From Posidonia oceanica (lineage: Eukaryota; Streptophyta; Magnoliopsida; Alismatales; Posidoniaceae): a stretch of 64,000 bases of DNA. The stretch spans positions 14,154,001-14,218,000 of the forward strand of contig JAZBRS010000049.1 of the NCBI GenBank assembly GCA_037176725.1, in the 5' to 3' direction. Positions 24,191 through 57,244 of this stretch are shown one piece after another. A program made the position numbers and the translations under genes. The stretch's first letter is position 1. The number at the start of each line of letters is the position of its first letter. Below the pieces are notes generated by a model that saw only the letters and a list, made by a program, of their open reading frames with translations, was not told the DNA's origin and did not search any database.

Positions 24191-24205
24191 ATTGATTGAT
24201 TGATT

Positions 24206-24452: not shown

Positions 24453-24901
24453 CGGATGATACAGGTGAGATACCACGGGGCATCTGAAAAGATGCCCCTG
24501 GTATCAGGATGATACCAAGGGCCAGCCGAAGCGTCCCTGGTATCAAAGAGCGAAGGATGGACAAAACTGACGTGTTTGTCAAACGAGTAGTTAGGGGGTA
24601 CCAGCCCGACGGAGACTCAGCTGGGGATGTCTGGCAGCAGGATTTGACGGCACGGGTCCGCGAAGGTCTCGGAGTCTGGGTCGGTTGCTGAGGACTTTCC
24701 CGCGTCATGTGGGTAACAAGTCGGGCCAGGGGCCTCCGGATATGAGTGGTAAGGAGCATGGAATGCATTAAGCAGCTTTGAAACGCGAGCAGCCAGCGCA
24801 AAACACCTTTGCATTGATAGAACTGTCGGTTACATGCCTGTGGCAGGCCAGAAAATACAACACAACTTGAAAGGAAACTGAGCAGCAATTGCATAACGGC
24901 T
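24453..24901 (-). other. Spacer after the PMD-like gene, element E
   Basis: About 450 bases with no supported gene. At 24495-24521 CCCCTGGTATC faces GATACCAAGGG across five bases, the counterpart of the 11-base hairpin at 48061-48087 in element F. The stretch nearer the PMD stop aligns with 47566-47860 in F. Confidence 0.6.
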
Positions 24902-30951: not shown

Positions 30952-30958
30952 ATATAAG
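30952..30958 (+). promoter_or_regulatory. Candidate LTR TATA box
   Basis: ATATAAG lies in CCACCGGATATAAGCC. The aligned position of the diverged LTR at 1-2927 reads GATAAAAGCC on the minus strand (1030-1036), with GCGCGCCAGCAGCC shared just upstream. If real, transcription starts about 30 bases downstream, giving a U3 of about 1.9 kb and an R+U5 of about 3.8 kb. The 3' LTR copy is at 53418-53424. Confidence 0.45.
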
Positions 30959-33900: not shown

Positions 33901-34398
33901 TTTCTGTATTCCTGCATTCTCATGGCTTTTCCGAGGTTTTGCTTCGCTGTTTTGGCACCGTTTCGCGTGCCTGCTCTCGTTTTGGCACCGTTTTGCGTGC
34001 CCTCTTGTTTTCTTGCCTCATTTTGCACGCTGCCTTGTTTTTCGCTCGTTTTGCGTGTCGGTTTCGCTCTTTTGCATCATTTTGCGTGCGTTGCTTATTT
34101 CTCGCCTCGTTTTGCGTGTTTTACGCTGTTTTCCCTTGCATGTCGATTGCATTGCATGGTTTTCTCGCTGTTTCGCTTTTTCGCCTGCATTTGCATATAG
34201 GGCTGTGATGCTTACTGTCTGGAGTTCTCACGAGCTAGGTTTCGCCTAATTCGGAACACGGACAGCGTGGCTGAGCACTTAGAGAGCACGTTTACTTCCT
34301 TGCTTTGTTTCTTCCCCCTTAGAGCACACCTCGAGCATTCATTCAGGCATTTATAGGCACATAGGCATTCAATCCTGCATTTTTCTGCGTATGCGAGC

Positions 34399-34507
34399 GT
34401 AAGCCTAGAAAGACCGATTTTCAGGCGTGTCGGGGGTGCCTAACACCTTCCCCGCACGTAACAGGAGTCCTTACCCTGTCTTTTGGCCCGCAATGACCAT
34501 ACTGCCT
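34399..34507 (+). promoter_or_regulatory. Conserved LTR block upstream of the LTR end
   Basis: It contains AAGCCTAGAAAGACCGATTT, GGGGGTGCCTAACACCTTCC, GTAACAGGAGTCCTTACCC and GGCCCGCAATGACC. The same block is found in every LTR of the window that reaches this point: 56865-56973 (+), and on the minus strand about 6880-6985, 9810-9910, 15480-15575 and 17152-17250. It is the best-kept non-coding stretch across LTRs that are otherwise hard to align. Function unknown. Confidence 0.8.
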
Positions 34508-34649
34508 TTATCCTAGGCTAGAGTCATCTCATTTGCATTTGTTTGCATTTGTTTTCCTTTGCATTGCTTTGCTTTGCATTTCTTGCTCGGTTTTGCACGT
34601 TAATTCGCGCATTTCCCCGGTTTTCCTCGTCTTCCGTTAATAGACGTGG

Positions 34650-34660
34650 TGGCGACTCTG
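34650..34660 (+). other. Primer-binding-site-like box inside the LTR
   Basis: TGGCGACTCTG is identical to the first 11 bases of the true primer-binding site at 34780, 130 bases upstream of it. Every LTR here has it: 57116-57126 (+), and GGAGTCGCCA or similar on the plus strand at 6790, 9659, 15318 and 16997. Confidence 0.8.
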
Positions 34661-34779
34661 ATTTGTCTTATCTTTCCTTTTTCTCCTCGATTTCCAAGTG
34701 TTTTCGAGTTGAGCCTCTTCCTCAGATCTCAATCGCCGCTGGAATATAGCGAGCCTGATTCCGATCGGGATCGCTACAG

Positions 34780-36927: not shown

Positions 36928-36969
36928 CACGGATACGCCGGCCATCCCGTTGCACTACCAGGCGACGCT

Positions 36970-39900: not shown

Positions 39901-41277
39901 CGAAGGAAATCTGAAGGTCTCGGCTACGAACCAAAGCCCAACGAAGATCACTGCTTCCAGCTCAGAGATCGTGCGCCAGCCATTCCCAGAGGCCTCACTA
40001 ACTTTACCAATGCAGGAATTCTGGGATCAACTGACTACCAAGCCACAGCACCGGCAGAGGATTGGGTGTGTATTGAGGACTACTACTCGGATGAGGAGCA
40101 GTCTGATGCAACAGAGGCAGTCCCAATCAGCTCAGCAGAAACAGTGGTCAGAGTAGAGGCCCCACAGTCAGTTTATTCAGCTCCCCCTCTGGCAAAAACA
40201 GCAGGCAGCTCAGCAGGCCCTGTGGCAGATTCAAGTTCTCATCTTTCAGCAGCCACAACAACTTCTCAAGATCAGTCAGCAGCAATGCAGGAGTCAGAGA
40301 CACTCCCTTTGGCAGAACCAAGCATGCTACCAGCGGTCACAGCAACATCAGTGCCACTGCCCCCATCTCTGGAGGGGCAGTCCATCAACTCAGTCAGCAG
40401 CGTGGCCCAGCCCGCTCCCTCAACATCATCTTCAGGAATGCAGCTGGCGCAGTCCGCTCCGCATTTTCCTGACGACCTGCAGCAGCTCTCATGGCAAGAC
40501 CCTATGGCGTCAGAGGCTGCACTCTCTCAGTTACGGCCCAATACAAAAGGCCAACTGAGCACTACACTCTCCGGGCCCTTGAGCCCTCCAAAGAGCACCC
40601 CTGCTTATTCTCCAGCAGTGACCCTGGAAGCCTATTCATCAGTAGCACCGCTGACTTGTCCATTTGGGCCTTCTACATCTGAACTGCCGTCAGCGGACGC
40701 GCCCGTGAACCAGATCATGCAGACTCCAAGGGCAGCAATCCGTCTTGCAGCCGGGCCAGTGCCGCAGGCCCCCGGCGCCTACTACGTCGACTCCCCCTCA
40801 GACGAAGAAGAAGGAGTGGCGATAGAAGCCCAGGTCGATTCTTGGATGTCCGACTTAGAGTTGCTTTATCAAGAACAACTCCAGTCAATAACAGAAGACT
40901 TGGCAGAGCATCAAGCTGCAGAAAGGAAAGGAAAAGCCGTAGTCACGGATCCTCCTCTGCAAGAGGACCATGCTTCTATCATGGTCCTAGAAGACTCAGC
41001 AGCGCCGGACTCCCCTAGACCAGATGAGCTCATCACTCTTCAACCCGAAGGCGGGTCTAGGTGGTTTGTGCAACCCATGCCTCACCTGAGCAAGACATCG
41101 AGCGGCAGTGACCAGATCAGCCGCCAGTCCGGCGTATCCTCCATGAGCACACTAGAAGACCCAGAGGGGGGAGCATCAGCAGTAGATGCAGCAGCAGCAG
41201 AGCAGAATGCCTCAGCAGCCTCAGCAGCACAGTCAGCAGTAAAAGCAGTCAGCAGTATCAGCAGCAGAGTCAGTTGA
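36970..41277 (+). CDS. gag-pro: Gag capsid/nucleocapsid, aspartic protease, G-patch-like region
   Basis: A frame of 1435 codons, continuing that of 36109. Residues about 70-210 are a retrotransposon Gag capsid domain (PPKFKISDFEKYNGRG, LLIRLFQKSLTGPALKWF, QAFLEQYSFN). A zinc knuckle of unusual spacing, C384-X2-H387-X4-H392-X4-C397, follows. After about 300 residues of Pro-rich linker the protease has its active site at D783 (LVDNGSGLNVCPL), with DNG where most retroelements have DTG or DSG, and the LLGRPWL motif. From M946 there is a short Gly-rich G-patch-like stretch (WGYTKGTPLGRHGQGI ... GLGYEP). The last 300 residues are Ser/Gln/Ala-rich and look disordered. It ends at TGA 41275, whereas element E keeps one frame into pol. 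It would form the particle and process the polyprotein. Confidence 0.92.
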   Translation: MVDPEEHLGATHSAYVLTTPANPSPTAAIPDPINNRMDVLEKALRLVQGTEHQTYQFRDLCCLPEAVLPPKFKISDFEKYNGRGCPVAHLKAYCGDLAQLQADERLLIRLFQKSLTGPALKWFTSLDMSAIKTWNDLSQAFLEQYSFNLDLVPKRADLIAIKQNSGEPFGEYVGRWRALASQVRDRPSDEESIEIVIKGAQPSLGALLSIQPVTTFAALIRAGARVESSLRSGNFPALSAFAKQAVISSNSANSSTFNNNSGSSNNRPKRKDSPKPAVAFVDSPAAPVRLPSRPAPAQMVYAPAPRNPHTPHITTTARPVYPAAPVQQGSHPRQRRPPTERRNFTPLVEPLMDILPKVASLLKFPEIRPPPSPLPHWFRPDLFCNFHRSVGHSTDNCFSLRNAIQDLIESGTIVIDTHEAPNQARTHASASSAVPPHSGIVRQPLPEHSYPGGAGTSDVHSVFPSGPAASVVDPSDLISDVSEPFSVSLYLAAVAGSESGIHLIRPRARPERPLAPPTVLPQAQSPVHLLARAQPSSPIHLLGRPQPHLLGRPQPAPAFPPQQPYPLDRPQHPVGPPITPPVLAAHAPVVINLTLDTHHVPYSYATEMCAEVTRSGRVYRPPAPATRPTPPGPVVPPPSGQPLADPTPDQPVTSHTPSQPVVTQLPATTPLEPARITPPAPRRSQPKADLTSQLKKVKADNSIWDLIHTSAEHREAFLRVFQAARVSQSIEPSALESMVGLIAEPQVISFTSDELPPAGINHNQPLFVTVQFKNFRIPLTLVDNGSGLNVCPLRTATKLGFKAEDITPAVKGMTAFDNTHHDALGILIIPLAIGPVVFDVEFYVVDLKPNFNLLLGRPWLHKHQVLPSTLHRMIKYRRGDDVIVVMVENFEKERIEAVSPMSSQSIPFDPETSEALYRVNRCEPVNFVPDLERVNSLTVHSNPFRMVENVCHRWGYTKGTPLGRHGQGIAEPIVAVERRKSEGLGYEPKPNEDHCFQLRDRAPAIPRGLTNFTNAGILGSTDYQATAPAEDWVCIEDYYSDEEQSDATEAVPISSAETVVRVEAPQSVYSAPPLAKTAGSSAGPVADSSSHLSAATTTSQDQSAAMQESETLPLAEPSMLPAVTATSVPLPPSLEGQSINSVSSVAQPAPSTSSSGMQLAQSAPHFPDDLQQLSWQDPMASEAALSQLRPNTKGQLSTTLSGPLSPPKSTPAYSPAVTLEAYSSVAPLTCPFGPSTSELPSADAPVNQIMQTPRAAIRLAAGPVPQAPGAYYVDSPSDEEEGVAIEAQVDSWMSDLELLYQEQLQSITEDLAEHQAAERKGKAVVTDPPLQEDHASIMVLEDSAAPDSPRPDELITLQPEGGSRWFVQPMPHLSKTSSGSDQISRQSGVSSMSTLEDPEGGASAVDAAAAEQNASAASAAQSAVKAVSSISSRVS

Positions 41278-41386
41278 GCCCTCAGCAGAATCAGCAGAGC
41301 ACTCAGCAAAGCCAGTCAGGCCAGAGCAAACACCAGAAGGAGATGCTAGGACGGAGGTCGCGCACCGAGGCTACAAGAATACTCGA

Positions 41387-43663
41387 GTGAGCGTGACCAT
41401 CCTGAAGCGTCACCAGGGCCAAGCAGCGGAACACATGCACTCTTTCGACATCACAAGTCCTTCTTTCGAGAAAGAGATCCTCTCAAAACTTATTGCTTAT
41501 GGAGAAGAGGATGACACGGGCATAGACGAGACTGACGAACCTTTGCCCGAGTTCCGGCCCTATGACGACGACCCAGAAGGCCCCAACCTCCATGTTGAAG
41601 AAGAAACGGAGGTTGTTAACATTGGCACAGCTGAGGAAGTCAGAGAAGTTTGCATCAGTGCCCAGCTGTCCGCCCAGGCTCGAGCAGAATTCATGGCATT
41701 CCTGAGGGAATATGCGGATGTCTTCGCCTGGAGTTATGAAGATATGATCGGCCTTGATATAGAGATAGTGGTGCACAATCTACCCTTAAATCCGGATGCC
41801 AAGCCAATAAAGCAGAAACTAAGAAGATGGCGACCGCAATGGCTGCTCATGATCAAAGAAGAGATAATGAAGCAGCTTGGAGTCAACTTTCTGAAGGTCG
41901 TCCTTTATCCTGAATGGCTGGCAAATATTGTACCTGTGCCCAAGAAAGATGGCCGAATTCGGATCTGTATCGACTATAGGGACCTGAACAAGGCGAGTCC
42001 CAAGGACGACTTTCCACTGCCTCACATTGACGTCCTAGTCGACAATACAGCGGGCCACAAAATGCTCTCCTTCATGGACGGCTTCTCTGGATACAATCAG
42101 ATCAAGATGGCAGAAGAGGATATGGAAAAGACTTCATTCATCACCCCTTGGGGAGTCTTCTGCTACCAAGTCATGCCGTTCGGCCTGAAGAATGCTGGTG
42201 CAACCTATCAGAGGGCCATGACTGCGCTATTCCACGACCTCATGCACCAAGAAGTGGAGGTCTATGTAGACGATATGATTGCCAAAACCAAAGAGCCCGA
42301 GGATCATCTTGCCTGTCTCAGAAAGCTCTTTGACCGTCTACGGAAGTACAAGCTGCGCCTGAATCCCAAGAAGTGCGTATTCGGGGTGTCTTCTGGCAAA
42401 TTGCTCGGCTACATTGTTAGCCAAAGGGGGATTGAGGTGGACCCGTTGAAAGCACAAGCCATCGTGGACATGCCACCCCCTAGGACTGAAAAAGAAGTCA
42501 GAAGTCTGCTTGGGCGTTTACAATATATCAGTCGCTTCATTGCACAGCTTACGCCCATCTGCGAACCCATATTCAAGCTCTTGAGAAAGAATGCGCAGAT
42601 TCACTGGAGCGAGGAGTGTCAGGCTGCATTTGCCAAGATCAAGCAGCTGTTGATCAAGCCTCCTGTCCTGGTCCCGCCTACGCCAGGGAGACCCTTACTT
42701 CTCTACCTTTCTACCACGCAGCATTCCATGGGCGCCGTCTTGGGCCAACATGACGAATCTGGTAGGAAGGAGCGCGCCATCTACTACTTGAGCAAGAAGT
42801 TTAATGAATGTGAAGCCAGGTACACAACACTAGAGAAGACTTGCTTGTCACTTGTCTGGGCTGCACAGAAGCTGAGGCACTACTTGATGGCCTACCCAGT
42901 GCAACTCTTATGCCGGCATGATCCTATCAAGTTCCTCTTTCAGAAGCCGGCCATGGTGGGCAGATGTGCTAAGTGGCAGGTGTTATTGTCTCAGTACGAC
43001 ATCACCTTTGTCACACAGAAGTCCATGAAGGGTCAAGCAATGGCAGACCATCTTGCCGACCTCCCTCTGCCTGAATACCAACCCCTCCAGACGCAGTTCC
43101 CTGATGAAGACATTCTCTTTGCAATGGAGGACTCTGAGCAGAAAGATCCTAGAGAAGCAGAGGAATGGCAGCTCTACTTTGATGGTGCAGTCAACAAGAA
43201 GGGCCGAGGCGTAGGCGCAGTGCTGACCACGCCCCAAGGACAGATGACTCCTTTCGCAAGAAAGCTGACTTTCACCTGCACAAACAACGAAGCAGAATAC
43301 GAAGCGTGCATCCTGGGGTTGAAAGTCGCCCTTGAGCATGAGGCGCAGAAGCTGCATGTGCACGGCGATGCCATGCTGGTAATTTCTCAAGTGAACGGCG
43401 AATGGAAGACAAAAGATCCCAAGCTTGTGCCGTATCACGAACACCTGCTGAGGCTGATGGAAAAATTCAAGAGCATCCGCTTCACGTACCTGAACAGAGC
43501 AAAGAACGCGTATGCAGACGCACTAGCAACTCTGGCATCCTGGCTCACCATTTCAGAAGACAGCACTGTGGATGTATCAGTCACCCGCATTGAACAGCCT
43601 GCATACTGCATGAGCATAGAAGAAGCGGATCCCGCAGAGGGCAGCCCTGGTATCAAGACATAA
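41387..43663 (+). CDS. pol: Reverse transcriptase, RNase H and second RNase H
   Basis: A frame of 758 codons, open from 41243. RT runs from about residue 130 to 380: PVPKKDGRIRICIDYRDLNK, DGFSGYNQI, MPFGLKNAGATYQRAM and the catalytic YVDDM at 293-297. The first RNase H (about 400-560) keeps LEKTCLSLVWA and ADHLA but has LYLSTTQHSMGAVL where the first Asp is expected, so it looks impaired. A second RNase H at about 593-735 has all four acidic positions: YFDGAV, NNEAEYEA, VHGDAML, NAYADALA. That pair defines the Tat group. The GTG at 41387 is only the first possible start; the protein is more likely made as Gag-Pol by frameshifting or after splicing. It ends at TAA 43661, one base out of frame with integrase. 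Confidence 0.93.
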   Translation: MSVTILKRHQGQAAEHMHSFDITSPSFEKEILSKLIAYGEEDDTGIDETDEPLPEFRPYDDDPEGPNLHVEEETEVVNIGTAEEVREVCISAQLSAQARAEFMAFLREYADVFAWSYEDMIGLDIEIVVHNLPLNPDAKPIKQKLRRWRPQWLLMIKEEIMKQLGVNFLKVVLYPEWLANIVPVPKKDGRIRICIDYRDLNKASPKDDFPLPHIDVLVDNTAGHKMLSFMDGFSGYNQIKMAEEDMEKTSFITPWGVFCYQVMPFGLKNAGATYQRAMTALFHDLMHQEVEVYVDDMIAKTKEPEDHLACLRKLFDRLRKYKLRLNPKKCVFGVSSGKLLGYIVSQRGIEVDPLKAQAIVDMPPPRTEKEVRSLLGRLQYISRFIAQLTPICEPIFKLLRKNAQIHWSEECQAAFAKIKQLLIKPPVLVPPTPGRPLLLYLSTTQHSMGAVLGQHDESGRKERAIYYLSKKFNECEARYTTLEKTCLSLVWAAQKLRHYLMAYPVQLLCRHDPIKFLFQKPAMVGRCAKWQVLLSQYDITFVTQKSMKGQAMADHLADLPLPEYQPLQTQFPDEDILFAMEDSEQKDPREAEEWQLYFDGAVNKKGRGVGAVLTTPQGQMTPFARKLTFTCTNNEAEYEACILGLKVALEHEAQKLHVHGDAMLVISQVNGEWKTKDPKLVPYHEHLLRLMEKFKSIRFTYLNRAKNAYADALATLASWLTISEDSTVDVSVTRIEQPAYCMSIEEADPAEGSPGIKT

Positions 43664-43671
43664 AATCCTTC

Positions 43672-44889
43672 ATGGAGTCTGGTAGCTTTCCTCCTGATAC
43701 CACGGCAACAGACAAGAGGACTTTGGCACGTCTGGCGTCAAAATATGTGTTAGGGGCCGGGCAGCTGTACAGAAGGTCATACAATCAGATGCTACTGCGC
43801 TTCCTGAACAAATCAGAGGCTGACACGCTGATGCTCCAAGTGCATGCGGGGACTTGTGGCCCGCACATGAACGGCGTCCTCCTGGCCAAGAAGATCATGC
43901 TGCAAGGTTATTTTTGGCAGACCATGGAAGCCGACTGCTGCTGGTTCGTGCGTAGATGCCACAACTGTCAAATTCATGGTAACTTCATCAAGGCCCCACC
44001 ACATCAGCTGCACAACATGTCTTCGCCATGGCCTTTCTCCACCTGGGGGATCGATGTCATTGGCGCCATCCACCCTGCTGCTTCAAATGGTCATCGTTAC
44101 ATTCTGGTAGCGATCGATTACTTTACCAAGTGGGTGGAAGCAGCCTCTTACAGAACAGTCACCGCTACGGCAACAGAAAAATTCATCAGAAACAATATCG
44201 TTGCCCGGTATGGGGTCCCGTACTCTGTCATCTCTGATAACGGCTCAAACTTCATTGCCAGAAGGATCGAAGAATACCTGCATAGTCTCAAGATCAAGCA
44301 CCATCGATCCTCGCCTTATCGGCCTCAGATGAACGGAGCAGTGGAATCTGCAAACAAGAACATTGTCAAGATCCTGAAGAAAATGGCAAAAATCCACAAG
44401 GATTGGCACGACAAGCTCCCGTACGCGCTCTGGGCGTACGGGACATCAATCCGGACCTCTACAGGAGCCACCCCGTACTCTCTGGTGTACGGCATGGAAG
44501 CGGTGTTACCTGTTGAAGTGGAGATCCCCTCTCTGCGGATCCTGCGGGAAGCTGAGTTGGAAGAAGCAGAATGGGTCGAAGACCGCTGCGTCCAACTAAA
44601 CTTGATTGATGAGCGCAGATTGCAAGCCATGCACAATGCTCACTGCTATCAGAAGCGGATGGCCAGAGCATTCTTGAAGAAGGTCCAGCCCAGAAGCTTC
44701 CAGCCAGGGGACCTTGTCTTGCGCGCCATTCATTTGCCTGATGGTCGAGGGAAATTCCGACCCAATTGGCGTGGCCCCTTTGTGGTCAAGCAGATCTTTT
44801 CGGGAGGCGCTGTAACTCTTGAGGATATGGACCAGGTCGAGCAGTCTGAGCCCGTCAACCTCTGCTATCTGAAGAAATACTATCAGTAG
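43672..44889 (+). CDS. int: Integrase
   Basis: A frame of 405 codons whose ATG is internal to the ancestral polyprotein. Zinc-binding motif H58-X6-H65-X30-C96-X2-C99; catalytic triad D128 (WGIDVIG), D189 (ISDNGSNF) and E225 (NGAVESANK), with the usual 35 residues between the last two. The C-terminal part has RPNWRGPFVV, a GPY/F-type module, and ends YLKKYYQ. No chromodomain is seen. The frame is open upstream: PWYQDIKSF at 43641 onward continues the second RNase H linker once one missing base is allowed for, by comparison with element E. It would insert the cDNA and make the 5-bp target duplication seen at CACTG. Confidence 0.93.
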   Translation: MESGSFPPDTTATDKRTLARLASKYVLGAGQLYRRSYNQMLLRFLNKSEADTLMLQVHAGTCGPHMNGVLLAKKIMLQGYFWQTMEADCCWFVRRCHNCQIHGNFIKAPPHQLHNMSSPWPFSTWGIDVIGAIHPAASNGHRYILVAIDYFTKWVEAASYRTVTATATEKFIRNNIVARYGVPYSVISDNGSNFIARRIEEYLHSLKIKHHRSSPYRPQMNGAVESANKNIVKILKKMAKIHKDWHDKLPYALWAYGTSIRTSTGATPYSLVYGMEAVLPVEVEIPSLRILREAELEEAEWVEDRCVQLNLIDERRLQAMHNAHCYQKRMARAFLKKVQPRSFQPGDLVLRAIHLPDGRGKFRPNWRGPFVVKQIFSGGAVTLEDMDQVEQSEPVNLCYLKKYYQ

Positions 44890-46227: not shown

Positions 46228-47565
46228 ATGCATACGGAACTACATTTTCAATCTCAGCTTCTACTTGTTGTCAAAGATTATATGCCTGCGAGATCTGACT
46301 GTTTATTGATAGCAGGTACCTCAAGCCTCGCAATAATCAGCCTGTCTTCTGCAACCAGTATAATGGGTTTTCCTACTCTGCTGACTCCCGCACATTGCTC
46401 GGAAACCCTGCGAGAATGGATCGGCAGGCTCACTCAAGTAGACTGTGAACAGTTGCGCCTCTGGGGTATCCCAACCAAGCTGCTAAAGGCTGCTGATGTG
46501 GAGGTCAGCCGCCACCTTCTGTGTGCCGCCGCAAGATTCTGGAAGCCGGCGCATCATGTCTTCCGTTTCAACAAAACTGAGCTGACACCTACACTGGAAG
46601 AGGTGCGTCGGATCTGCGGCTTTTCAAAGATGCTGGGGCCGCCTGTTTTCATGAGGCGCGACGGATATCTCCGAGTCCTGAACCAACTGACTGGACTCTC
46701 CACTCAAGACTGCCAACAAAAGCTAATCTGCACCAATGGACCAGAGCCTATGCTTCGCCTTGCACACTTTGATGATATCTTGAACAAGCGTGCTGACCTC
46801 GGAGATGAGCTGTGGCTCCGAGGATTCGTCATCCGCTTTCTGGGCAAACTAATCTTTACCCATGGCCGACTGACAGTGGCCATCGAGGTCGCAGAAATTG
46901 CACTAGCTGTGGTGACCCAGCACATAGATCTGGCACCAGTTGTCTTGGCAGAGACATATCGCGGGCTAGACCGCATTTCTCATCGCTGCCGCCACTTCCA
47001 TGGTTGCGGAGCACTTATACAAGTCTGGCTGACCGCGCACTTAGAGATGGACATCCTGCGCCCTCAAGTGCATGCTTTCGAAGCCTACTGCAGCAGAGCC
47101 CGTACCAGAGCAGACAAAAGCGTCAAAGACGAGTACAAGAGGCTGTCAGCATTGACTGACGACACTGTGATCTGGCGCATCGTTCCCTCTGCAGCAGAGC
47201 CGTTCACAATCTTCTTCAGCGCGCGTGACACGCGGCTGATCATTCTTCCAGGCTTCACAGCAGGCGTAGAGTACCATCCAATCAGGGTCATGCGCCAGTT
47301 CGGCTTCCAGCAGGGCGCCTTCATTGACGGTACAGCGCCCGAGCTTCTACAGACTTACCCTCCCAGCACCATTGCCCCAACCAAAAAGCTTGCTAGTCTG
47401 ATGCAGCACGGGGTCCAATCCACAGACATTGCAGCTCTGAGAGGTACAGGATGCACTCCTGATTATGAAGCTGAAGTCCGACAGCTCTGGCCAATCACTG
47501 AAGTCCCGCCAGGCGGTCCCTTATTCCCCGACTCCAGGCAGCCAAAGAAGGCCCGGGTTGATTAG
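46228..47565 (+). CDS. PMD/DUF7745-like protein carried by the retrotransposon
   Basis: 445 codons, or 400 if the ATG at 46363 (MGFPTL) is used; homology with the element E copy starts at that second ATG, so I prefer it. Recognisable stretches: WGIPTKLLKAADVEVSRHLL, RFWKPAHHVFRF, ELTPTLEEVRRICGFSK, LAETYRGLDRISH, WRIVPSAAEPFTIFFSARD, YHPIRVMRQFGFQQGAF, and a basic end PDSRQPKKARVD that could be a nuclear signal. These resemble the plant mobile domain / DUF7745 families, known from plant genes and transposons; this is from memory. It is not protease, RT or envelope: no signal peptide or membrane segment is seen. It lies in sense orientation 1.3 kb after integrase and 4 kb before the 3' LTR. 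The frame is intact here. Expression is probably from a spliced RNA. Confidence 0.82.
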   Translation: MHTELHFQSQLLLVVKDYMPARSDCLLIAGTSSLAIISLSSATSIMGFPTLLTPAHCSETLREWIGRLTQVDCEQLRLWGIPTKLLKAADVEVSRHLLCAAARFWKPAHHVFRFNKTELTPTLEEVRRICGFSKMLGPPVFMRRDGYLRVLNQLTGLSTQDCQQKLICTNGPEPMLRLAHFDDILNKRADLGDELWLRGFVIRFLGKLIFTHGRLTVAIEVAEIALAVVTQHIDLAPVVLAETYRGLDRISHRCRHFHGCGALIQVWLTAHLEMDILRPQVHAFEAYCSRARTRADKSVKDEYKRLSALTDDTVIWRIVPSAAEPFTIFFSARDTRLIILPGFTAGVEYHPIRVMRQFGFQQGAFIDGTAPELLQTYPPSTIAPTKKLASLMQHGVQSTDIAALRGTGCTPDYEAEVRQLWPITEVPPGGPLFPDSRQPKKARVD

Positions 47566-47860
47566 GCCCTTGTGCGACCATCATGTGGTCTTCTTTCAAA
47601 TTGTGCTGTACCTTTTTGGCCTGCCGCAGGCATTGTACTTACCAAGATCATATCAATGGAAACTGTTTCTGCTTTCTGCTTGCACATCAAGACTCTTTGC
47701 TGCATTGCATATCATTATCATTATTTTGGGCCCTCTAATCAGACTTGCAGACATCCCAGCGCGGCGAAGTCCTCAGCACCCAATCCGGAGCCCAGAGCAT
47801 CTGCAGGACCGCGACACCAAGCTCCGCCGTCCGGCATCCTCAGCTGGTCATCCCCAGCTG
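47566..47860 (+). other. Spacer after the PMD-like gene, element F
   Basis: 300 bases with no gene seen. It aligns partly with the reverse complement of 24620-24900 in element E (CTTTTTGGCCTGCC, TTGCATTGCATATC, GACTTGCAGACATC regions). Confidence 0.55.
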
Positions 47861-49060
47861 GACCACTGTCCTCTGCGGGCTGGCACCCCAAACTGCCCGG
47901 CGAAAGGTCCGTCAACCTGTCATCCTCCTCAACTGTTCATCCTCAGCTGAGTCCCTCGCGGGCTGGCACCCCAAACTGCTCGGCGATGGGTCCGTCAACC
48001 TATCTTTCATCCACTCGCTTATCCGTCTTTGCATCCTGATGCCAAGGGCGCACCGACCATCCCCTGGTATCATCCTGATACCAGGGGCATTTTTTGGTCG
48101 CCCAGTGGTATCATCCCCAGCTGATCATTCCCAGCTGAGTCCTCTTCTCGGCTGGTCATCCCCAGCTGATCATCCCCAGCTGAGTCCTCTTCTCAGCTGG
48201 TCATCCCCAACTGAGTCCCCAGCTGATCATACCCAGCTGAGTCCTCTTCTCGGTTGGTCATCCCCAGCTGAGTCCCCAGTTGGTCGCCCCAGCTGGATCA
48301 TTATCTCTGCGGGCTGGCACCCCAAACTGCTCGGCGAAAGGTCCGTCAACCTGACACTTTTCTCGGCTGGTCACCCCAGCTGAGTCCCCAGTTGGTCGCC
48401 CCAGCTGGATCTCTGCGGGCTGGCACCCCAAACTGCTCGGCGAAAGGTCCGTCAACCTAACACTTTTCTCGGCTGGTCACCCCAGCTGAGTCCCCAGTTG
48501 GTCGCCCCAGCTGGATCTCTACGGGCTGGCACCCCAAACTGCTCGGCGAAAGGTCCGTCAACCTGACACTCTTCTCGGCTGGTCACCCCAGCTGAGTCCC
48601 CAGTTGGTCGCCCCAGCTGGATCTCTGCGGGCTGGCACCCCAAACTTCTCAGCGAAAGGTCCGTCAACCTGACACTCTTCTCGACTGGTCATCCCCAGTC
48701 GAGTCCCCAGTTGGTCGCCCCAGCTGGATCTCTGCGGGCTGGCACCCCAAACTGCTCGGCGAAAGGTCCGTCAACCTGACACTCTTCTCGGCTGGTCACC
48801 CCAGCTGAGTCCCCAGTTGGTCGCCCCAGCTGGATCTCTGCGGGCTGGCACCCCAAACTGCTCAGCGAAAGGTCCGTCAACCTGACACTCTTCTCGACTG
48901 GTCATCCCCAGTCGAGTCCCCAGTTGGTCGCCCCAACTGGATCTCTGCGGGCTGGCACCCCAAACTGCTCGGCGAAAGGTCCGTCAACCTGACACTCTTC
49001 TCGACTGGTCATCCCCAGTCGAGTCCTCAGCTGATCGCCCTCAGCTGAGTCCCTTGCGGG
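47861..49060. repeat. ~106-bp tandem repeat of hairpins, element F
   Basis: Units start with CTGCGGGCTGGCACCCCAAA at 48308, 48412, 48519, 48625, 48732, 48838 and 48945 (spacing 104-107), with looser copies from 47875. Each unit holds two inverted repeats: CTCGGCTGG/CCAGCTGAG (48362-48384), which becomes CTCGACTGG/CCAGTCGAG (48680-48703) with both arms changed; and CCAGTTGG/CCAGCTGG, perfect as CCAGTTGG/CCAACTGG near 48922-48942. At 48061-48087 CCCCTGGTATC faces GATACCAGGGG (11 bp, loop ATCCT). Minus-strand frames here are repeat artefacts. Confidence 0.92.
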
Positions 49061-49306
49061 CTGATACCCCAAACTACTCGTCTGACAAGCACGACACTCT
49101 TGTCATCACTCTCTGCTTTCGATGCCAAGGACGCGCTGGCCAACCCCTGGTGTCATCTCGACACCAGGGGCATCTTTTGATCGCCCCTTGGTATCATTCC
49201 TTCCCTCTTTCCCCCATGACGTTCCTGGCGTCATGGGATGATTTCTTCTCATCATTCCCTCATCCCCTCTTTGCCGGCCGATAAGTCCGATATCTTATCA
49301 ATCAAC
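49061..49306. repeat. Three single hairpins, element F
   Basis: CCCCTGGTGTC (49144-49154) and GACACCAGGGG (49160-49170) form a perfect 11-bp stem that differs from the 48061 hairpin by one paired change. CCCATGACG (49213-49221) and CGTCATGGG (49229-49237) form a 9-bp stem. GATAAG/CTTATC with GCCGGC in front lies at 49274-49300. Confidence 0.88.
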
Positions 49307-49880
49307 ACTTCTCATCATTCCCTCATCCCCCTCTTTAGCTTACCTTCTCATCATGATCTCATCCCCCTCTTTAGCTTAATTTCTCATCATGATCTCATCC
49401 CCTCTTTAGGTTAATCTCTCATCATGATCTCATCCCCCTCTTTAGGATAACTTCTCATCATGATCTCATCCCCCTCTTTAGGTTAGTTTCTCATCATGAT
49501 CTCATCCCCCTCTTTAGGTTAATTTCTCATCATGATCTCATCCCCCTCTTTAGGTTAATCTCTCATCATGATCTCATCCCCCTCTTTAGATTAATTTCTC
49601 ATCATGATCTCATCCCCCTCTTTAGCTTAATTTCTCATCATGATCTCATCCCCCTCTTTAGATTAATCTCTCAACATGATCTCATCCCCCTCTTTAGATT
49701 AATTTCTCATCATGATCTCATCCCCCTCTTTAGATTAATTTCTCATCATGATCTCATCCCCCTCTTTAGCTTAGTTTCTTATCATGATCTCATCCCCCTC
49801 TTTAGCTTAATTTCTCATCATAATCTCATCCCCCTCTTTAGATCAACTTCTCATCATTATCTCATCCCCTCTTTGCCGGC
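49307..49880. repeat. 36-bp tandem repeat, 16 units, element F
   Basis: Units of 35-36 bases built on TCTCATCATGATCTCATCCC and CCTCTTTAGGTTAAT. Each contains the 8-base palindrome ATCATGAT. The last two units have lost it (ATCATAAT, ATCATTAT). Units differ mainly at the four bases after TTTAG. GATAAG/CTTATC units flank the array on both sides. Confidence 0.92.
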
Positions 49881-50989
49881 CGATAAGTCCGATATCTTAT
49901 CATTCTCATCATGATCTTGCCCCCTCTTATCAATCAATCAATCACTCGTGCTAGGCTGATATCCGAAACTATCTCAGGCTGATATTCCTAAACTATCATC
50001 TATCAATCACTCGTGCTAGGCTGATATCCGAAACTATCTCAGGCTGATAATCCTAAACTATCTTCTGGTCGATCCATGGTCGGCCCGCAGTTGTGTTATA
50101 CGGCTGACATCCAGTAACTGTCCCTCGTAATTGCACTTTTCCAGTTGATAGGTCTGTAAGCTATCCACCGGTTGACAGGACCGTAAACTGTCGTTAGGCT
50201 GATACTCCTAAACTATCGCGTGCAATTACGTTATACGGCTGACATCCAGTAACTGTCCCTTGCAATTGCGGTTTCCAGTTGATAGGACTGTAAACTATCC
50301 TCCAGTTGATAGGTCTGTAAACTATCCACCGGTTGACAGGACCGTAAACTGTCGTTAGGCTGATACTCCTAAACTATCACCCGCAATTGCATTATACGGC
50401 TGATATCCAGTAACTATCCCTCATCATTGTGCGTTTTCAGTTGATAGGTCTGTAAACTATCCGCCGGTTGACAGGACCGTAAACTGTCGCTCCAGTTGAT
50501 AGGTCTGTAAACTATCCACCAGTTGGTAGGACTGTAAACTACCACGCGCAATGATGTTATACGGCTGACATCCAGTAACTGTCCCTCGCAATGCTGTTTC
50601 CAGTTGATAGGACTGTAAACTATCCTCCAGTTGATAGGTCTGTAAACTATCCGCCGGTTGACAGGACCGTAAACTGTCGCTCCAGATGATAGACTGTAAA
50701 CTATCCGGCATTGCGTTATACGGCTGATATCCAGTAACTATCACTCATGGTTTGTGGGTTCCAGTTGATAGGTCTGTAAACTATCCTCCAGTTGATAGGT
50801 CTGTAAACTATCCACCGGTTGACAGGACCGTAAACTGTCGTTAGGCTGATACTCCTAAACTATCACCCACAACCATGTTATACAGCTGATATCCAGTAAC
50901 TATCACTCACAACTGCTCCAGTTGACAGGACCGTAAACTGTCACTCCCGGTTGATAGGACCGTAAACTATCCGGACGATAAGCCCGTCA
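49881..50989. repeat. Array of GATAG/CTATC-type hairpins, element F
   Basis: About 40 short inverted repeats with 8-9 base loops. Three paired states of one stem occur: GATAG/CTATC (50281-50299), GACAG/CTGTC (50335-50353) and GGTAG/CTACC (50525-50543). A second family alternates GATA/TATC and GACA/TGTC around TCCAGTAAC. It is the counterpart of 23115-24190 in element E, in reverse complement. Confidence 0.92.
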
Positions 50990-51514
50990 CCTTATCATTT
51001 TTTTTCTCCTTTTCGGCGTGGCCTTGTCCCAGGAAGACGAAGTCACGCACCCCCTTTCTGCGATAGGAGAGTTGGCCTCTCTCCCCTCGCGCCCTTCTTT
51101 CCTGCTAGCTTGCTCCCCGGGCGGGGACCAGCTGCACCCTGTTTTCCTTCGCTTTGTCGTGCAAGTCTGGCCCCCCTGCCGGACATTCGCACCACATCGT
51201 GCCTTTTTATCATTTTCTTTGCATCATCTCAGCACTTTCTTAGCTAGCACTGCATGTTACTTCAGTATCACTTGCACAGCATCAGCATTTCCTTCTAACT
51301 GCACTAACTTTTATACTAACTCTTGCATTGCATTTAGCATATCACACACAGCACAGCATCCATCTGCACTGGCATCTTGCATTGCGGCAACGGGCTACGA
51401 TCTTCGGTCCATCCGCCGAATAAGTAGCTCACGCCCATAGCAACCCGCCGCTCCCGCCGGTCAGATGGGGTGTCTTGTCAACCCTGAGCAGCGGCCGCGC
51501 TCCGCTTGCCCTCG
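50990..51514 (+). other. Spacer between hairpin array and PPT, element F
   Basis: About 525 bases, aligned with the reverse complement of 22607-23114 in element E. The frame at 51018-51440 (140 codons) is not kept in E, so no gene is called. GC-rich at its right end. Confidence 0.65.
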
Positions 51515-51545
51515 CTCAGGGAGGGGCATCTGTTGACACCCCATC
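51464..51545. other. Composite palindrome enclosing the PPT and LTR start
   Basis: GATGGGGT (51464-51471) and GTCAAC (51477-51482) face GTTGAC (51532-51537) and ACCCCATC (51538-51545), with a 5-base bulge GTCTT. Inside, CCTGAGC (51483-51489) faces GCTCAGG (51514-51520). The polypurine tract lies between the inner and outer right arms. Element E has the same structure at 22577-22656. Confidence 0.88.
51515..51530 (+). other. Polypurine tract of element F
   Basis: CTCAGGGAGGGGCATC directly before TGTTGACACC. Same sequence in element E. It primes plus-strand DNA synthesis. Confidence 0.9.
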
Positions 51546-54500
51546 TTGGCAGGCTTGGACCCTTGGAGCCCTCTTGGTGATTGCTGGATCAAACCCCAAC
51601 CAAACCCTAACCCTAATCCTCCTCTTTACCCCTCAGAAACAGCCCATTTTGACCTAAACCTTTGCCCCCCTTCCCAACCTCAAAACTTAACCAAAATCCA
51701 AAGGAAAACCCACCACTATCCACTCAACAAACCTACCCAAAGACCAAGGAATTTCCAAGCCTAACTTATTCCCAAAAACCTTAGAAAACTTAGGTAAAAC
51801 TACCCTTTTTCTACACCTTGAAACCCCTCCAAAACCTCCTTAAAATCGGACCAAAACTTCAGACCTAAGACTTCAAACCCTAGACTACCCACTCACCAAT
51901 TTTCACCCCATTCCAAGACCATTAAGACCCTCTTCCACCCAAATTATCCTTTTCTCTCTCCGGGATTATCATTTTCTCTCTCCTCTCTCTCTCTCCTGAT
52001 TATCATCTCTTTTTTCATCCCTTTCTCATCCTTTTTCTGGTCTAGCTGTGGGCCCCCTCTGTGCTTCTGTCCTTCCTCTATCTTACCCCTATTTTTACTT
52101 TATTTTTAACACTTTTTCTGAATTTTTAAAAATCGTTTTCCTCCAACCTATCCTTTTCCTTTTATCTCCCTCTTTTTTCCATTTCTTTCCTCCTTCTCTT
52201 TTCCTTTTCTCCCTTTTGCAAAAATCCACAAAAACCCATAAAAATCTGCAAAATCTCAAAACACAAAAGAAGCAAATCAGTACCCTCAGAAAAGTAATTA
52301 AAAAATGTTAAACAAGCAATTGACAACTTAAACTTAACTAAAGCAAGCTAAAAAGAAAACCAAGCATGCAAACTAAAAAATGCAAAACAAATCAAAAGAA
52401 AACACTGAAAAATCAAGGAAAAAGCTAAAATAAAATCAAAACCCACCAAAGGTAAAAACCCATCAGAAGAATTAAAAACAAACCCAAAAACAAGAATTAA
52501 AAAAATCAAATACTAAAACAAGTAATTAAGGAAGACAAAAGACTTAACTTAATAAACATAAGAAAAACAAGTAAAAAACTTAATTAAAAAAGAAAAGAAA
52601 AACACATCTGAAAAGCCTAAAAAACACCCTATCAAACCAGAAAAATCCAACTAAAAACTTCAAGAAAAATCAATAAATAAAAAATCAAGACATAACTCAA
52701 AAGACTTAAGAAAGAGAAACCTTAACAAGACTACAACTTAAAAATCTAAAAAACATCCTGATTAATGGGAAAATAAATCCTAAAAAATCCTAATTAATAT
52801 CCTAAGTGTCCAACAAGGGAAATACAATTTTTAAAATAATTTTAAAAGGGATTAACAAACATTTAAACAAGTGAAAACTAATTAAACGTAAAACCAAAAC
52901 CCTAAAACCCTAATCAAGCCCAAAACACATTAATCAACTCAAAATAACCATTAAAAATCTTAATTAAAATCCTAACCTACAGCGCAATCCTTCTGGCATT
53001 TTTATTTAATTTTTAGTTTATCTTTACCTATTTTATTTCCCCATTCTACCCTCTCTTTCTTTCTTATTTTCCTTCTTCCTTCTTATTTTTTCCTTACTGG
53101 GCTCAAACTGGCCCGTTTCTCTTTTTCTTTTATTTCTTTTTTTCGGCCCCCGCACGGTCCGGCCCACGCGCCATCCCCACCCTTCTTCCTCCTCCAACCT
53201 TCTGCTTTTTTCTCTTCCGCCGGTTTTCTCCCGCGAGCTGCTGCTACAGCCTTCCCTCCTCGTTTAAATTCGAAGCTCCGTCCTTTCATCTACAGCAGCT
53301 CGCCGTCTCCTCATCTCAGCACCAAATCCGGAGTCGGTCGCCTCGCCGTCTCCTCTGCTGCAGTGGCCGCCGACGAATTTGAAATTCGGAAGCGCGCCAG
53401 CAGCCGGCCTCCACCGGATATAAGCCTCTCCTTCGTTCCTCCTTCGGTGGGCAGAATGAACCTTCAGCAAGAGAGCAAACCCAGAGAGCGTGAGTGATCT
53501 CAGAGAGCAATTCAGAGAGCCATTCCCACTTCCCTTCTTCCACCTGCAACTCCTTCCTCTTCTTCTCTGTCTCCCCCACTTCCAGAGGAGAGAGTGGCCA
53601 GAAAGAGTGGTTTGGGAGTCACCTCTGTATCCCGGAGAGAGACTCCAATCCCCCAGCCTCCTCCACCCAATTCCCTTCCCTTCCTCTGCCAAAAACTTCA
53701 GCAAAACCTCCCCTCTCTTTTCCAGTGAGCCAGGCCCTTTCCCAGCCTCCATCTTCCTTCCTATTACTTCCCCAATCTCACCCAGCACCTGACTTTCTCC
53801 CTCCAACATTCACCAGCTGTTCCACCACTTAAAATCTCCCAGAAACACACCCTGATCCCAACTGAAACCCAACTCCTTCCCTTCGGCAATTCCCTCTACT
53901 CCAGCTCACCGCCTTCCCCCAAACTTCTTCCAGAGACTCACTGGACCTCCACCTTCTCAAAACACCAACCATCAAACCCAGCCACCCACCACAGACCGAG
54001 AACTCCACTCCAAACACCTGCATCAACCACAGACCAAAATTCGACCCAACTCCCAAACCTCCTCCACGCCTTCCAGAACCCCTCTCCAAGCATCCAACTA
54101 CACTCCTCAGACCTCCAGCAGCCTCCCGGAGGGCTTCGCTCCGCCAGACGAGCAGCCAACACCTCCCCCGGCCTCCGGCAGTATCAGGCGAACCCAAAAG
54201 TGCCGGATCTCCCTCCAGCCTTCGCAGCTCACGTCTGACCACCTGGGAAGCTCCGGAGGATCGTTCTGAGGCGACTCCAGCCTTCGCGAGCCGCTGAAAG
54301 CCTCCCCTGCAACCGGACGACGACCACCGGCCGACTCCGACACTGCCGAGGTCGGGAGCGCCTTCCGGACACGATCGCAGGTACCACTCGCTCCCCCCTC
54401 TCTCTCTCCTCCTCCTGCTGCTTCTCCGCCAGTCAGAACCGAGTTCCGAGCGTTCCAGACGCAGTTGCAGTTCGCCGGACAGCTCTCCTTCTCCGGCGCC

Positions 54501-57244
54501 GGCTGTTCTTCCTCCGGACACTCCGACCACCAGAGCGAGCTCCGGACCATTCCCAGAGCTCCGGACGATCGCCGACGTCGTTCTCCGCCCTCCCGCGCAT
54601 CCTCAGCCTCCCCTGTCGACGGCCACGGGTACTGCCGGCGCTCTGCTACAGTACTCGTCGCCGTCGACCAGTTACTGTGCATTTATTTTATTCTGGCTAA
54701 AGTTTTAAGTAAATATTGCATATTTGGTTTAAGTTTCTGTCATTTTACATTCCGGTCCTTATTCCACTTAATCTACTGTGCTTTTAAATCAAAATCATAT
54801 TAAATTGCTGTTTTTATTTATGTTTTTCAGTATTTGCAATCTGGTCCATTTACTGTGCTGTGCTGTTATAATATTTTGCATTTTAGCCCCTCTGTTTTTG
54901 TTTTTTGCATGTAAGTCCTGCACTAAATCATTTTATTTAAATGCATTAACTTTACCATACTGCATTGCATCCTGGCCCCCTGCATGTTTTTATTTTTGCA
55001 TTTAAGTCCCATGCACTGTAGCAACTTAGGATTTATTTTTTATTTTTGCATACTGCATTGCATATTTTACCTTCTAGTTTTGCATATTTGCAGTTAGGTC
55101 CATTTTAAATGGACAGTAACTGTGCTGCATGCATTTTAGCTTATTACATTGCATTTTTGACCCTGATCTTTTTAAAAATTGCACTGTAGCCCTGTTATTT
55201 AATTTTCAGAGCATGTTTTCCATACTAAATTGCATTTTTAGCCCCTGCATGATTTCAAAATCACACCTAGGTCCTTGCATGTTTTAAAAAATCATGTGAA
55301 AAGACCATTTTGCCCCTAGGTTGCATTCTAGCTCCTATGCCCACCAAATTTCATGCAGACCTTCCACTAGTATTCCCAGACTCCCTGGAACCTTGTTTTC
55401 TGGAAAAATTGCATTTTAGACCCTAGTTTTTTCAAAATTGCACCCTGACTTCTTTTTGGTTTCAAAACCCCTTTTAAAGCACACCCTCTTTTCAAAACAA
55501 CTTTCTAAGCCTAGTTTTGCCAAACGAAGCCTTGCCCTCTCCTGTTTTCGAAATCCCTTCCCATGGAACCCTGTTTTCTGGGAAATTTGTACTTTTAGCC
55601 CCTTTTCTTTTCCAAAATGTCCCCTGAAATCCTGGTTTTTCCCAGTTTCTTATCATTGCTTTTTCTTGCTTTTGCATGCATCCTGCACTCATCTAGCCTT
55701 GCATTCTAGCATCTTCTTGCACACACTGAGCACTTCTAGCTCCCCTTCACCTGGGAGGACCCTTTTTCACACCCCTAGGACCTCCTGAACACCTAGATCT
55801 GCTCTTCTCCCCTGTTCTGGCCCTTCTGTCTTGAAACTGCAATATCTTGCAATCCGACCGTTGGATCTTCTCAAGTAAGCTGCCCAGGCGACCGCAGCAA
55901 GGCGCCCTTCAACATGGACCAGACAGATTTCAGATCAGGCTCCCGGATCTCCAGGTATGTCCTCCTGAACCCCTGCATTGCATTCATTTGCATGCCATTT
56001 GCACAGTTTTCCTCGTTTTGGTTTTCTGTCTCTTCGAGCATGTAGAATAGGGCCTCCCCTTTCTGCTTCTATCTCCAAATCCCCGTTTCGCGTACCCCTG
56101 TGTGTTTTGTGTTGAGTTTTCCTTGGATTTGCCACGCAATGTAACTTTCTTCCCCCTTTTCCACGATCCGATCACATCGCGAGCTTTGGGCAGCATGCGA
56201 GACACACCGTGGAACGGTTTAGTGGGAAATAGTCGCAAAGAGGTGGTAATCCCTCCGTTGCACACTCTCCCCTCTGTAGGTCTTCACACCTACTCTGAGT
56301 GGTCCCGAACAACGTCTGTTCTTACACACACGTTGTTTTGACTCCCCTTTGGCCTTTTCTAATCTCTTTCTGTATTCCTGCATTCTCATGGCTTTTCCGA
56401 GGTTTTGCTTCACTGTTTTGGCACCGTTTCGCGTGCCTGCTCTCGTTTTGGCACCGTTTTGCGTGCCCTCCTGTTTTCTTGCCTCATTTTGCGCGCTGCC
56501 TTGTTTTCCGCTCGTTTTGCGTGTCGGTTTCGCTCTTTTGCATCATTTTGCGTGCGTTGCTTATTTCTTGCCTCGTTTTGCGTGTTTTACGCTGTTTTCC
56601 CTTGCATGTCGATTGCATTGAATGGTTTTCTCGCTGTTTCGCTTTTTCGCCTGCATTTGCATATAGGGCTGTGATGCTTACTGTCTGGAGTTCTCACGAG
56701 CTAGGTTTCGCCTAATTCGGAACACGGACAGCGTGGCTGAGCACTTAGAGAGCACGTTTACTTCCTTGCTTTGTTTCTTCCCCCTTGGAGCACACCTCGA
56801 GCATTCATTCAGGCATTTATAGGCACATAGGCATTCAATCCTGCATTTTTCTACGTATGCGAGCGTAAGCCTAGAAAGACCGATTTTCGGGCGTGTCGGG
56901 GGTGCCTAACACCTTCCCCGCACGTAACAGGAGTCCTTACCCTGTCTTTTGGCCCGCAATGACCATACTGCCTTTATCCTAGGCTAGAGTCATCTCATTT
57001 GCATTTGTTTGCATTTGTTTTCCTTTGCATTGCTTTGCTTTGCATTTCTTGCTCGGTTTTGCGCGTTAATTCGCGCATTTCCCCGGTTTTCCTCGTCTTC
57101 CGTTAATAGACGTGGTGGCGACTCTGATTTGTCTTATCTTTCCTTTTTCTCCTCGATTTCCAAGTGTTTTCGAGTTGAGCCTCTTCCTCGGATCTCAATC
57201 GCCGCTGGAATATAGCGAGCCTGATTCCGATCGGGATCGCTACA
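51531..57244 (+). mobile_element. Element F 3' LTR (5714 bp)
   Basis: Near-identical to 29066-34778, offset 22465-22466. Differences are mostly transitions, for example the CCTAACCCATT/CCTAACTTATT change near 51763 and several in 55850-57190. It ends GATCGCTACA followed by the CACTG duplication. It carries the conserved block at 56865-56973 and the primer-like box at 57116-57126. Confidence 0.96.

Follow-up and report, generated by a model that had tools for sequence, protein, structure and literature searches.

The DNA examined here, called the window, is a stretch of 64,000 nucleotides from Posidonia oceanica (assembly GCA_037176725.1, contig JAZBRS010000049.1, positions 14,154,001 to 14,218,000 of the forward strand). 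It contains a long terminal repeat (LTR) retrotransposon, element F, which is inserted in the opposite orientation into an older Tat-type relative, element E (junction 29065/57245), and this nesting allows a direct comparison of the two within one window. Between its last open reading frame (ORF), of the PMD type, and its 3' LTR, just 5' of the polypurine tract (PPT), F carries an array of short inverted repeats, and a homologous array is found in E. The features of the two elements are as follows.

29066-34778, plus strand: 5' LTR of F, with TG...CA ends, from the self-comparison of the window
36928-44889, plus strand: ORFs of F for gag-protease, reverse transcriptase (RT)-RNase H-second RNase H, and integrase (ORFs, Pfam)
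46228-47565, plus strand: PMD-like ORF of F (PF10536, also DUF7745), 5' of the array (Pfam)
47861-49200, plus strand: upstream part of the F array, with 106-bp repeats, longer hairpins, and unit classes G and H
49309-49874, plus strand: 36-bp tandem repeat of 15.8 copies that interrupts the F array, with one 4-bp hairpin called
50087-50916, plus strand: 3' domain of F, about 0.8 kb, with a closing stem, five modules, and six D linkers
51531-57244, plus strand: 3' LTR of F, immediately after GGGAGGGGCATC, which is the PPT by position
25292-26254, minus strand: PMD ORF of E (PF10536, also DUF7745), between the E integrase and the array
23115-24640, minus strand: E array, homologous to the F array, with 39 called units
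23318-24091, minus strand: 3' domain of E, with a closing stem (24083-24091/23318-23326) that includes one G.U pair

The LTRs of F are 99.4% identical over 5.7 kb in the self-comparison of the window, and a 5-bp target-site duplication, CACTG, flanks the element at both ends. The coding part displays the Pfam order Retrotrans_gag, Asp_protease_2 (21.6 bits, under its cut-off of 24.3), G-patch, RVT_1, RT_RNaseH, RVT_3, and rve. This domain order, the second RNase H, and the presence of tandem repeats between the coding part and the 3' LTR are fitting for a Tat/Ogre-type LTR retrotransposon. The last ORF starts 1.3 kb 3' of the integrase ORF and is probably read from a spliced RNA; a protein search with it returned 10 relatives at 51-83% identity. 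On the minus strand, E reads from its PMD ORF to the array (24640-23115) and on to a 3' LTR starting at 22590. Tandem repeats of 30-40 bp, or multiples of this, built around GCACGCAAAACGGTGCAAGAAA or its complement are also found in the F LTRs (33991-34118 and 56457-56584) and at 17538-18227 and 10173-10671 (LTR-related). An exact search of the genome (2.96 Gb, 80 contigs) with the PPT/LTR junction GGGAGGGGCATCTGTTGACACCCCA yielded 25,452 sites (12,769 forward and 12,683 reverse), and the reversed pattern, used as a control in the same genome, yielded none. The element group with this junction is extremely abundant in the genome.

The F array is heterogeneous, as its parts at 47861-49200, 49309-49874, and 49875-50996 differ from each other, the last being the most regular. 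A template search recovers 53 units in F and 39 in E, and both arrays share units of 21-25 nt with a varying, pairing stem of 4-6 bp. An earlier, sequence-only reading had described some 3 kb of F as built of inverted repeats whose arms change together. The pairing stands, but the array measures about 2.5 kb, because 49309-49874 is occupied by the 36-bp repeat, with its single 4-bp hairpin. The stems which that reading had quoted are all present. GATAG/CTATC, GACAG/CTGTC, and GGTAG/CTACC belong to one 24-nt class (50601-50624, 50169-50192, and 50520-50543, respectively), the 11-bp stem lies at 48061-48071/48077-48087 (CCCCTGGTATC) and 49144-49154/49160-49170 (CCCCTGGTGTC), and the third stem occurs as CTCGGCTGG/CCAGCTGAG (48362-48370/48376-48384) and CTCGACTGG/CCAGTCGAG (48680-48688/48695-48703). 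Three further features, described below, escaped that reading: a second stem interleaved with the first, stems that enclose whole modules at long range, and the E counterpart of the array.

In the upstream part of F, the hairpins CTCGGCTGG/CCAGCTGAG and CCAGTTGG/CCAGCTGG lie within the 106-bp repeats, accompanied by units of class G (GGG/CCC with GGCA/TGCT) and class H (CGG/CCG with AGGT/ACCT). Two copies of a nested stem, in which an outer GATGCCA...TGGTATC encloses an inner CCCCTGGTRTC/GAYACCAGGGG, are also found there. With the E copy, CCCTTGGTATC, the window holds three copies of this stem (48020-48117, 49100-49205, and 24565-24455 on the minus strand; outer GATRCCA/TGGTATC, same inner stem), distinguished from each other by paired and G.U changes. 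At roughly the site of the 36-bp repeat of F, E has 41-bp repeats of a GATAAG/CTTATC unit. F retains single GATAAG/CTTATC units at both edges of its 36-bp repeat, as if an array of them had been replaced there by a repeat with little local pairing.

Many units possess, besides the 4-6 bp stem (S2), a second stem of 2-4 bp (S1), the 3' half of which lies within the S2 loop. The resulting order S1a-S2a-S1b-S2b is the layout of an H-type pseudoknot. The following unit serves as an example; its S2 loop contains ACCG, complementary to the CGGT just 5' of the stem.

50169-50192, plus strand: S1a CGGT, first loop (L1) T, S2a GACAG, second loop (L2) G, S1b ACCG, third loop (L3) TAAA, S2b CTGTC

Other forms of S1 occur by class, namely TAGG/CCTA, TTGG/CCAA, TCGG/CCGA, CAGT/ACTG, GGG/CCC, and GACG/CGTC. 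The spacing remains similar across classes, with 1-2 pyrimidines between S1a and S2a, 1-2 bases between S2a and S1b, and 3-4 bases, mostly A, before S2b; class H departs from this in having a four-base first loop. A strict Watson-Crick scan of the whole window for interleaved stems, each able to pair, finds 13 sense units within 50169-50996 of F and another at 49078; in the E array it finds 17, one of them in another register. Each of the 20 shuffles made per array yields 0-2. The opposite strand has 3 such matches in the F array and 5 in the E array, and elsewhere in the window matches are scattered. In an H-type pseudoknot, the first loop can be short where it spans a stem of 4-6 bp, and the third, spanning 3-4 bp, can be longer and rich in A; the loop lengths of the units would accordingly fit the sense strand, not its complement, in such a fold.

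A second level of pairing is found in the 3' domain, which in both F and E is divided by six nearly identical D linkers (TTATACGGCTGATATCCAGTAACTATC). Each module between two linkers holds 3-4 units, and its ends, 83-114 nt apart, are complementary over 8-12 bp with a stem sequence of its own. Furthermore, a closing stem is formed between GCAGTTGTG, before the first linker, and an arm after the sixth, CACAACTGC in F and CACAATTGC in E.

50087-50095/50908-50916, plus strand: closing stem of F, GCAGTTGTG/CACAACTGC, from pairing
50126-50230, plus strand: module 1 of F, arms 50126-50136/50220-50230, CGTAATTGCAC/GTGCAATTACG; 3 units
50261-50391, plus strand: module 2 of F, arms 50261-50271/50381-50391, TGCAATTGCGG/CCGCAATTGCA; 4 units
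50422-50556, plus strand: module 3 of F, arms 50422-50433/50545-50556, CATCATTGTGCG/CGCGCAATGATG, one G.U; 4 units
50587-50715, plus strand: module 4 of F, arms 50587-50596/50706-50715, CGCAATGCTG/CGGCATTGCG, one G.U; 3 called units and a shorter one with its stem at 50688
50746-50877, plus strand: module 5 of F, arms 50746-50758 (one extra T)/50866-50877, CATGGTTTGTGGG/CCCACAACCATG; 4 units
within 23318-24091, minus strand: module arms of E, CGTAATTGCC/GGCAATTACG, TGCAATTGC/GCAATTGCA, CGCAAACC/GGTTTGCG, CATAATTGC/GCAATTATG, and CATGGTTTGC/GCAACCATG (the last with one extra T)

When the 3' arms are permuted among modules, only the true order attains the observed pairing (1/120 in F and 1/120 in E), although partial cross-pairing is possible between some similar arms, such as those of E modules 1 and 4. 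Once identical stems among the twelve are merged, the nine distinct stems have 79 of their 80 cells paired, the best of 20,000 shuffles reaching 77. Across 98 modules from 21 loci (F, E, and 19 copies of the junction sample described below, L087 being left out as having no D linker), the cognate arm score is 864.5 versus 551.9 +/- 24.2, with a maximum of 627, in 2000 within-locus permutations, and the best partner in its own row is the cognate arm for 90 of the 98 arms. In these permutation tests, which are simple and ignore phylogeny, pairing thus exceeds that of permuted arms. A minimum spanning tree over 12 distinct stems comprises 15 base-pair changes, all 15 two-sided and Watson-Crick at both ends. 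Its E3 stem is that of the window, CGCAAACC, the E-type majority CGCAAACA carrying one mismatch; extra bases and the L072 stems, which need a one-base bulge, are left out. Whole-unit copying cannot yield two-sided arm changes, and each of them needs a compensatory change.

The array has been followed in further copies, all from this one species. A query with the upstream 540 bases returned 39 further F-type copies. Twenty E-type copies, from 39 other full-length places listed, were obtained with the 3' domain as the query, so that the six-linker plan is partly selected in them. With F and E, this gives a set of 61 arrays, 40 F-type and 21 E-type; L001-L008 are left out of all analyses, as shorter cuts of copies included at greater length or, in the case of L001, of the window itself. 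Six D linkers are found in 51 of the 61 (30/40 F-type and 21/21 E-type). Besides a jitter of 1-3 nt, modules differ in length by 24-29 or 55 nt, roughly one or two units, which indicates that units are gained and lost while the arms stay.

A second sample consists of the first 20 of 100 listed PPT/LTR sites, all on one contig and chosen without array similarity. The paired domain recurs in 19 of these 20 copies, with at least three D linkers and paired modules; 13 have exactly six linkers, and L087 has none. Nineteen of the 20 also contain at least four sense-strand interleaved matches, for a total of 183 sense versus 69 antisense, some of which lie outside the array. By our assignment, 14 of the 20 form a third family, L073 is F-like, L076, L079, and L084 are E-like, and L072 is different again. 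In blastn, the best pieces of the third family match F at 73-78% identity and E at 70-75%, with one short piece falling outside the latter range. Its arms differ, as in CATGATTG/CAATCATG, CGCAAATGCC/GGCATTTGCG, and CATG(G)ATTGTGC/GCACAATCATG. The five-module plan is common to the three families of this genome, and so is the extra base in the 5' arm of module 5, although its sequence and exact place vary. In seven copies (L012, L020, L026, L057, L065, L080, and L086), one or two whole modules are absent, and the remaining arms are paired. Four others (L010, L074, L082, and L085) contain a hybrid module whose arms match poorly or not at all, as recombination within modules would leave.

Within units, paired states dominate the 61 arrays, in counts that the copying of whole units inflates. 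Class A, of 24 nt, accounts for 873 units from 59 of the 61, with S2 forms GATAG/CTATC (571), GACAG/CTGTC (211), and GGTAG/CTACC (46), and half-changed GATAG/CTGTC and GATAG/CTACC at 5 each among the forms listed. In class D (342 units), GATA/TATC (207) and GACA/TGTC (124) compare with 4 half-changed units. Covariation was assessed on distinct units from 22 loci in nine unit classes, against 300 shuffles of the 3' letters. S2 lies above all 300 shuffles in classes D and G2, and S1 does so in two of the nine, A and C. Taken together, the pairing of S2 is firm, and S1 has good support in two classes and is otherwise plausible only from its layout. Within classes A, C, and D, no part is more conserved than the crossing loops L1 and L3 (98-99%); these reach 97% in C1 (S2 99%) and 90% in Z. 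Across the five classes measured, S1 is conserved at 83-94% and S2 at 94-99%, all these values being biased upward since units were chosen at no more than 30% mismatch. Crossing loops are thus highly conserved in four of the five.

The array is probably a selected, folded, cis-acting domain of the genomic RNA located just 5' of the PPT, its position and form suggesting a role in export or packaging. Selection on an RNA structure, one of the options that the sequence-only reading had put forward, is well supported and highly probable, and may now be stated more precisely as selection on an RNA domain that is modular and probably pseudoknotted. It is likely that the units form pseudoknots, S1 and S2 interleaving in many of them on the sense strand; this step is less firmly supported. 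The interleaved units, with no known cruciform counterpart in DNA, and the loop lengths that fit point to the sense-strand RNA. The module stems would differ so that each module closes on itself rather than on a neighbour, and the conserved crossing loops (1-2 pyrimidines between S1a and S2a, 3-4 A-rich nucleotides between S1b and S2b) may provide a contact surface.

Like a transport element, the putative structured RNA lies between the last ORF and the PPT/3' LTR, and the array might export the unspliced genomic RNA from the nucleus, as retroviral and musD transport elements do. Introns have been reported in Medicago Ogre elements (PMC12786077) and the last ORF of F is probably read from spliced RNA, so that export of the genomic RNA in unspliced form would have to be assisted. 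Alternatively, the array might act as a multivalent Gag-binding packaging site, which the tolerance in unit number and the 2.5-kb length would fit. Given the structure, export is a tentative proposal, somewhat short of an even chance, and packaging is doubtful, as is a role in RNA stability, translation, or another process. The chances are about even for the fuller picture, in which a lineage with more than 25,000 junctions would carry a 0.8-kb modular RNA (about 2.5 kb in F with the upstream part), with some 25-50 pseudoknot-like units and private module stems that prevent cross-pairing, as a natural scaffold for export or packaging.

Several results weigh against a selected, pseudoknotted RNA. 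An RNA under selection is expected to tolerate G.U more than A.C. Counted in the six-linker copies (51 of the 61), G.U and A.C number 15 versus 19 among variants found in at least two copies and 47 versus 57 among private ones. Module stems show 21 G.U versus 15 A.C under a scoring that favours G.U. A noisy whole-array scan at four settings gives G.U:A.C ratios of 90:75, 9:8, 383:355, and 36:21, or 32:36, 8:5, 166:192, and 25:16 for distinct sequences. G.U is not clearly in excess in these counts. Decay after insertion may make up much of the variation, which would mask a G.U signal. The nested minimum free energy (MFE), from a program that ignores pseudoknots, has z-scores of -3.0 for F sense, -3.5 for F antisense, -4.2 for E sense, and -0.65 for E antisense (40 shuffles each); folding energy is hence moderately low, and its sense specificity is not clear. 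Within units, class A S2 covariation falls just inside the shuffles (0.076, maximum 0.079), and S2 of Z, C1, and H is not above them. S1 does not exceed the shuffles in Z and C1, lies under the shuffled mean in D and H, and is invariant in G2, while C2 and G, with only 9 and 3 distinct units, are uninformative. Two forms of class A by themselves, CGGT/CCCG and CGGT/TCCG, lack the fourth S1 pair in 40 units each (80 of 346), and class C includes forms with a mismatch inside the stem (TGGG/CCAA, TAGG/CCGA). Lastly, point mutations in the pseudoknot stems of the Ty1 retrotransposon left packaging unaffected (PMC8396678). In searches for known families, Rfam 15 covariance models gave no match at gathering score in the window and none at E <= 1 in 47800-51050; the class A unit had no exact match in viral contigs, nor the D linker in a collection of genome contigs.

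Chance inverted repeats as the source of the pairing are ruled out by the shuffle scans, the arm permutations, and the stem-cell shuffles. The structure could be real and the units simple or two-state hairpins, forming S1 or S2 but not both at once. S1 being only 2-4 bp long and covarying beyond shuffles in two of nine classes would agree with this, whereas its covariation in A and C and loop lengths that suit a sense-strand H-type pseudoknot speak for the double fold, and hairpins of this kind are rather unlikely to be the whole answer. A purely mutational origin is also conceivable, in which hairpin-templated repair or RT template switching copies one arm onto the other with no selected fold. 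The RT that copies the element RNA is prone to errors and to template switching, and nearly exclusive Watson-Crick pairing of the stems, in which G.U is not clearly preferred, is what templated copying would leave; single short hairpins could have arisen by such repair. However, 83-114 nt separate the two arms of a module, which match over no more than 8-12 bp and at a fixed register; one snap-back event does not make two interleaved stems; four of the five classes measured show high conservation of the crossing loops; and the families have in common both the extra base in one arm and the whole plan. This origin is unlikely for the array. A role at the DNA level, as cruciforms or a palindromic protein-binding array in integrated or complementary DNA copies, would explain an inverted symmetry seen on both strands, a wobble signal with no clear strand specificity, and an F antisense that folds as well as the sense. 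We know of no DNA cruciform counterpart of the interleaved two-stem unit, and long-range stems that differ in sequence leave the arms with no common binding word; this role is highly improbable.

The array might also be an ordinary hypervariable Tat 3' untranslated region (UTR) tandem repeat, grown by strand transfer between co-packaged RNAs, with pairing as a by-product of copying palindromic units. Tat elements often have tandem repeats at this place, and it has been proposed that these expand through illegitimate recombination or strand transfer (PMC7004042). Units are indeed gained and lost here, and the hybrid modules of L010, L074, L082, and L085 have unmatched arms. The sequence-only reading held that tandem repeats alone do not predict paired changes, which is half right: a whole unit is copied with both its arms, and one paired change is thereby spread, so that unit counts are not independent and the stronger evidence comes from distinct stems and long-range arms. 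There, 12 distinct long-range stems, all complementary, and the permutation results are not what unit copying produces, and three families have the five-module plan. This explanation is already disfavoured, and very unlikely. Tandem-unit copying as the sole cause is ruled out by the arm permutations and by the 15/15 two-sided changes among the 12 stems. A selected, folded RNA domain remains the preferred reading, on evidence that is drawn from sequence throughout.

If this reading is true, a folded domain would explain why Tat/Ogre repeats persist after the last gene, ahead of the 3' LTR, and would provide a handle on the export or packaging of giant plant retrotransposon RNA. The array would moreover rank as an uncommonly long natural series of pseudoknot-like units, whose evolved set of stems mostly avoids cross-pairing. 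Among known systems, the upstream pseudoknot domains in the 3' UTR of tobamoviruses and related viruses consist of consecutive H-type pseudoknots, the arrangement proposed for the array. They differ in having fewer units, a position beside a tRNA-like end, and no known module stems. In a 5' UTR tandem-pseudoknot system, the number of pseudoknots also varies and a role in virion assembly has been suggested, with 2-4 units and no enclosing private stems mentioned in the abstract.

The closest relatives by lineage are the Ogre/Tat 3' UTR repeats, found likewise 3' of gag-pol and varying in unit sequence and length; illegitimate recombination or strand transfer is their proposed origin, and they have been discussed as a source of satellites (PMC7004042). 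They are called hypervariable there, in a main text without the words "hairpin", "palindrom-", or "secondary structure", whereas a paired modular plan is found here in three families. Among the open-licence papers returned by literature searches, none describes, judged by title and abstract opening, a structured or pseudoknotted array for these plant elements, and a 2025 review states that the export of LTR-retrotransposon RNA has not been directly studied in plants (PMC12786077). In animals, the musD transport element (MTE) of mouse, also a complex cis-acting RNA of an LTR retrotransposon with a pseudoknot and a long-range contact, is required for RNA export (PMC5767303, PMC12786077). It is 412 bp long (PMC11379458) and has one pseudoknot, with no tandem modules described in these sources; its sequence relation to the array was compared through Rfam alone. 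The constitutive transport element (CTE) of Mason-Pfizer monkey virus (MPMV) shares with the array a location directly 5' of the PPT, and a MER11-derived (SERV-K) element of about 1 kb can substitute for it; both belong to animal retroviruses, with no pseudoknot array described (PMC11379458). The 5' pseudoknot of Ty1 likewise lies in a retrotransposon genomic RNA and favours Gag binding in vitro, but it is single, long-range, and at the 5' end (PMC8396678). Structured cis-acting RNAs of retroelements are known; what is unusual here is the size, the modularity, and the host lineage.

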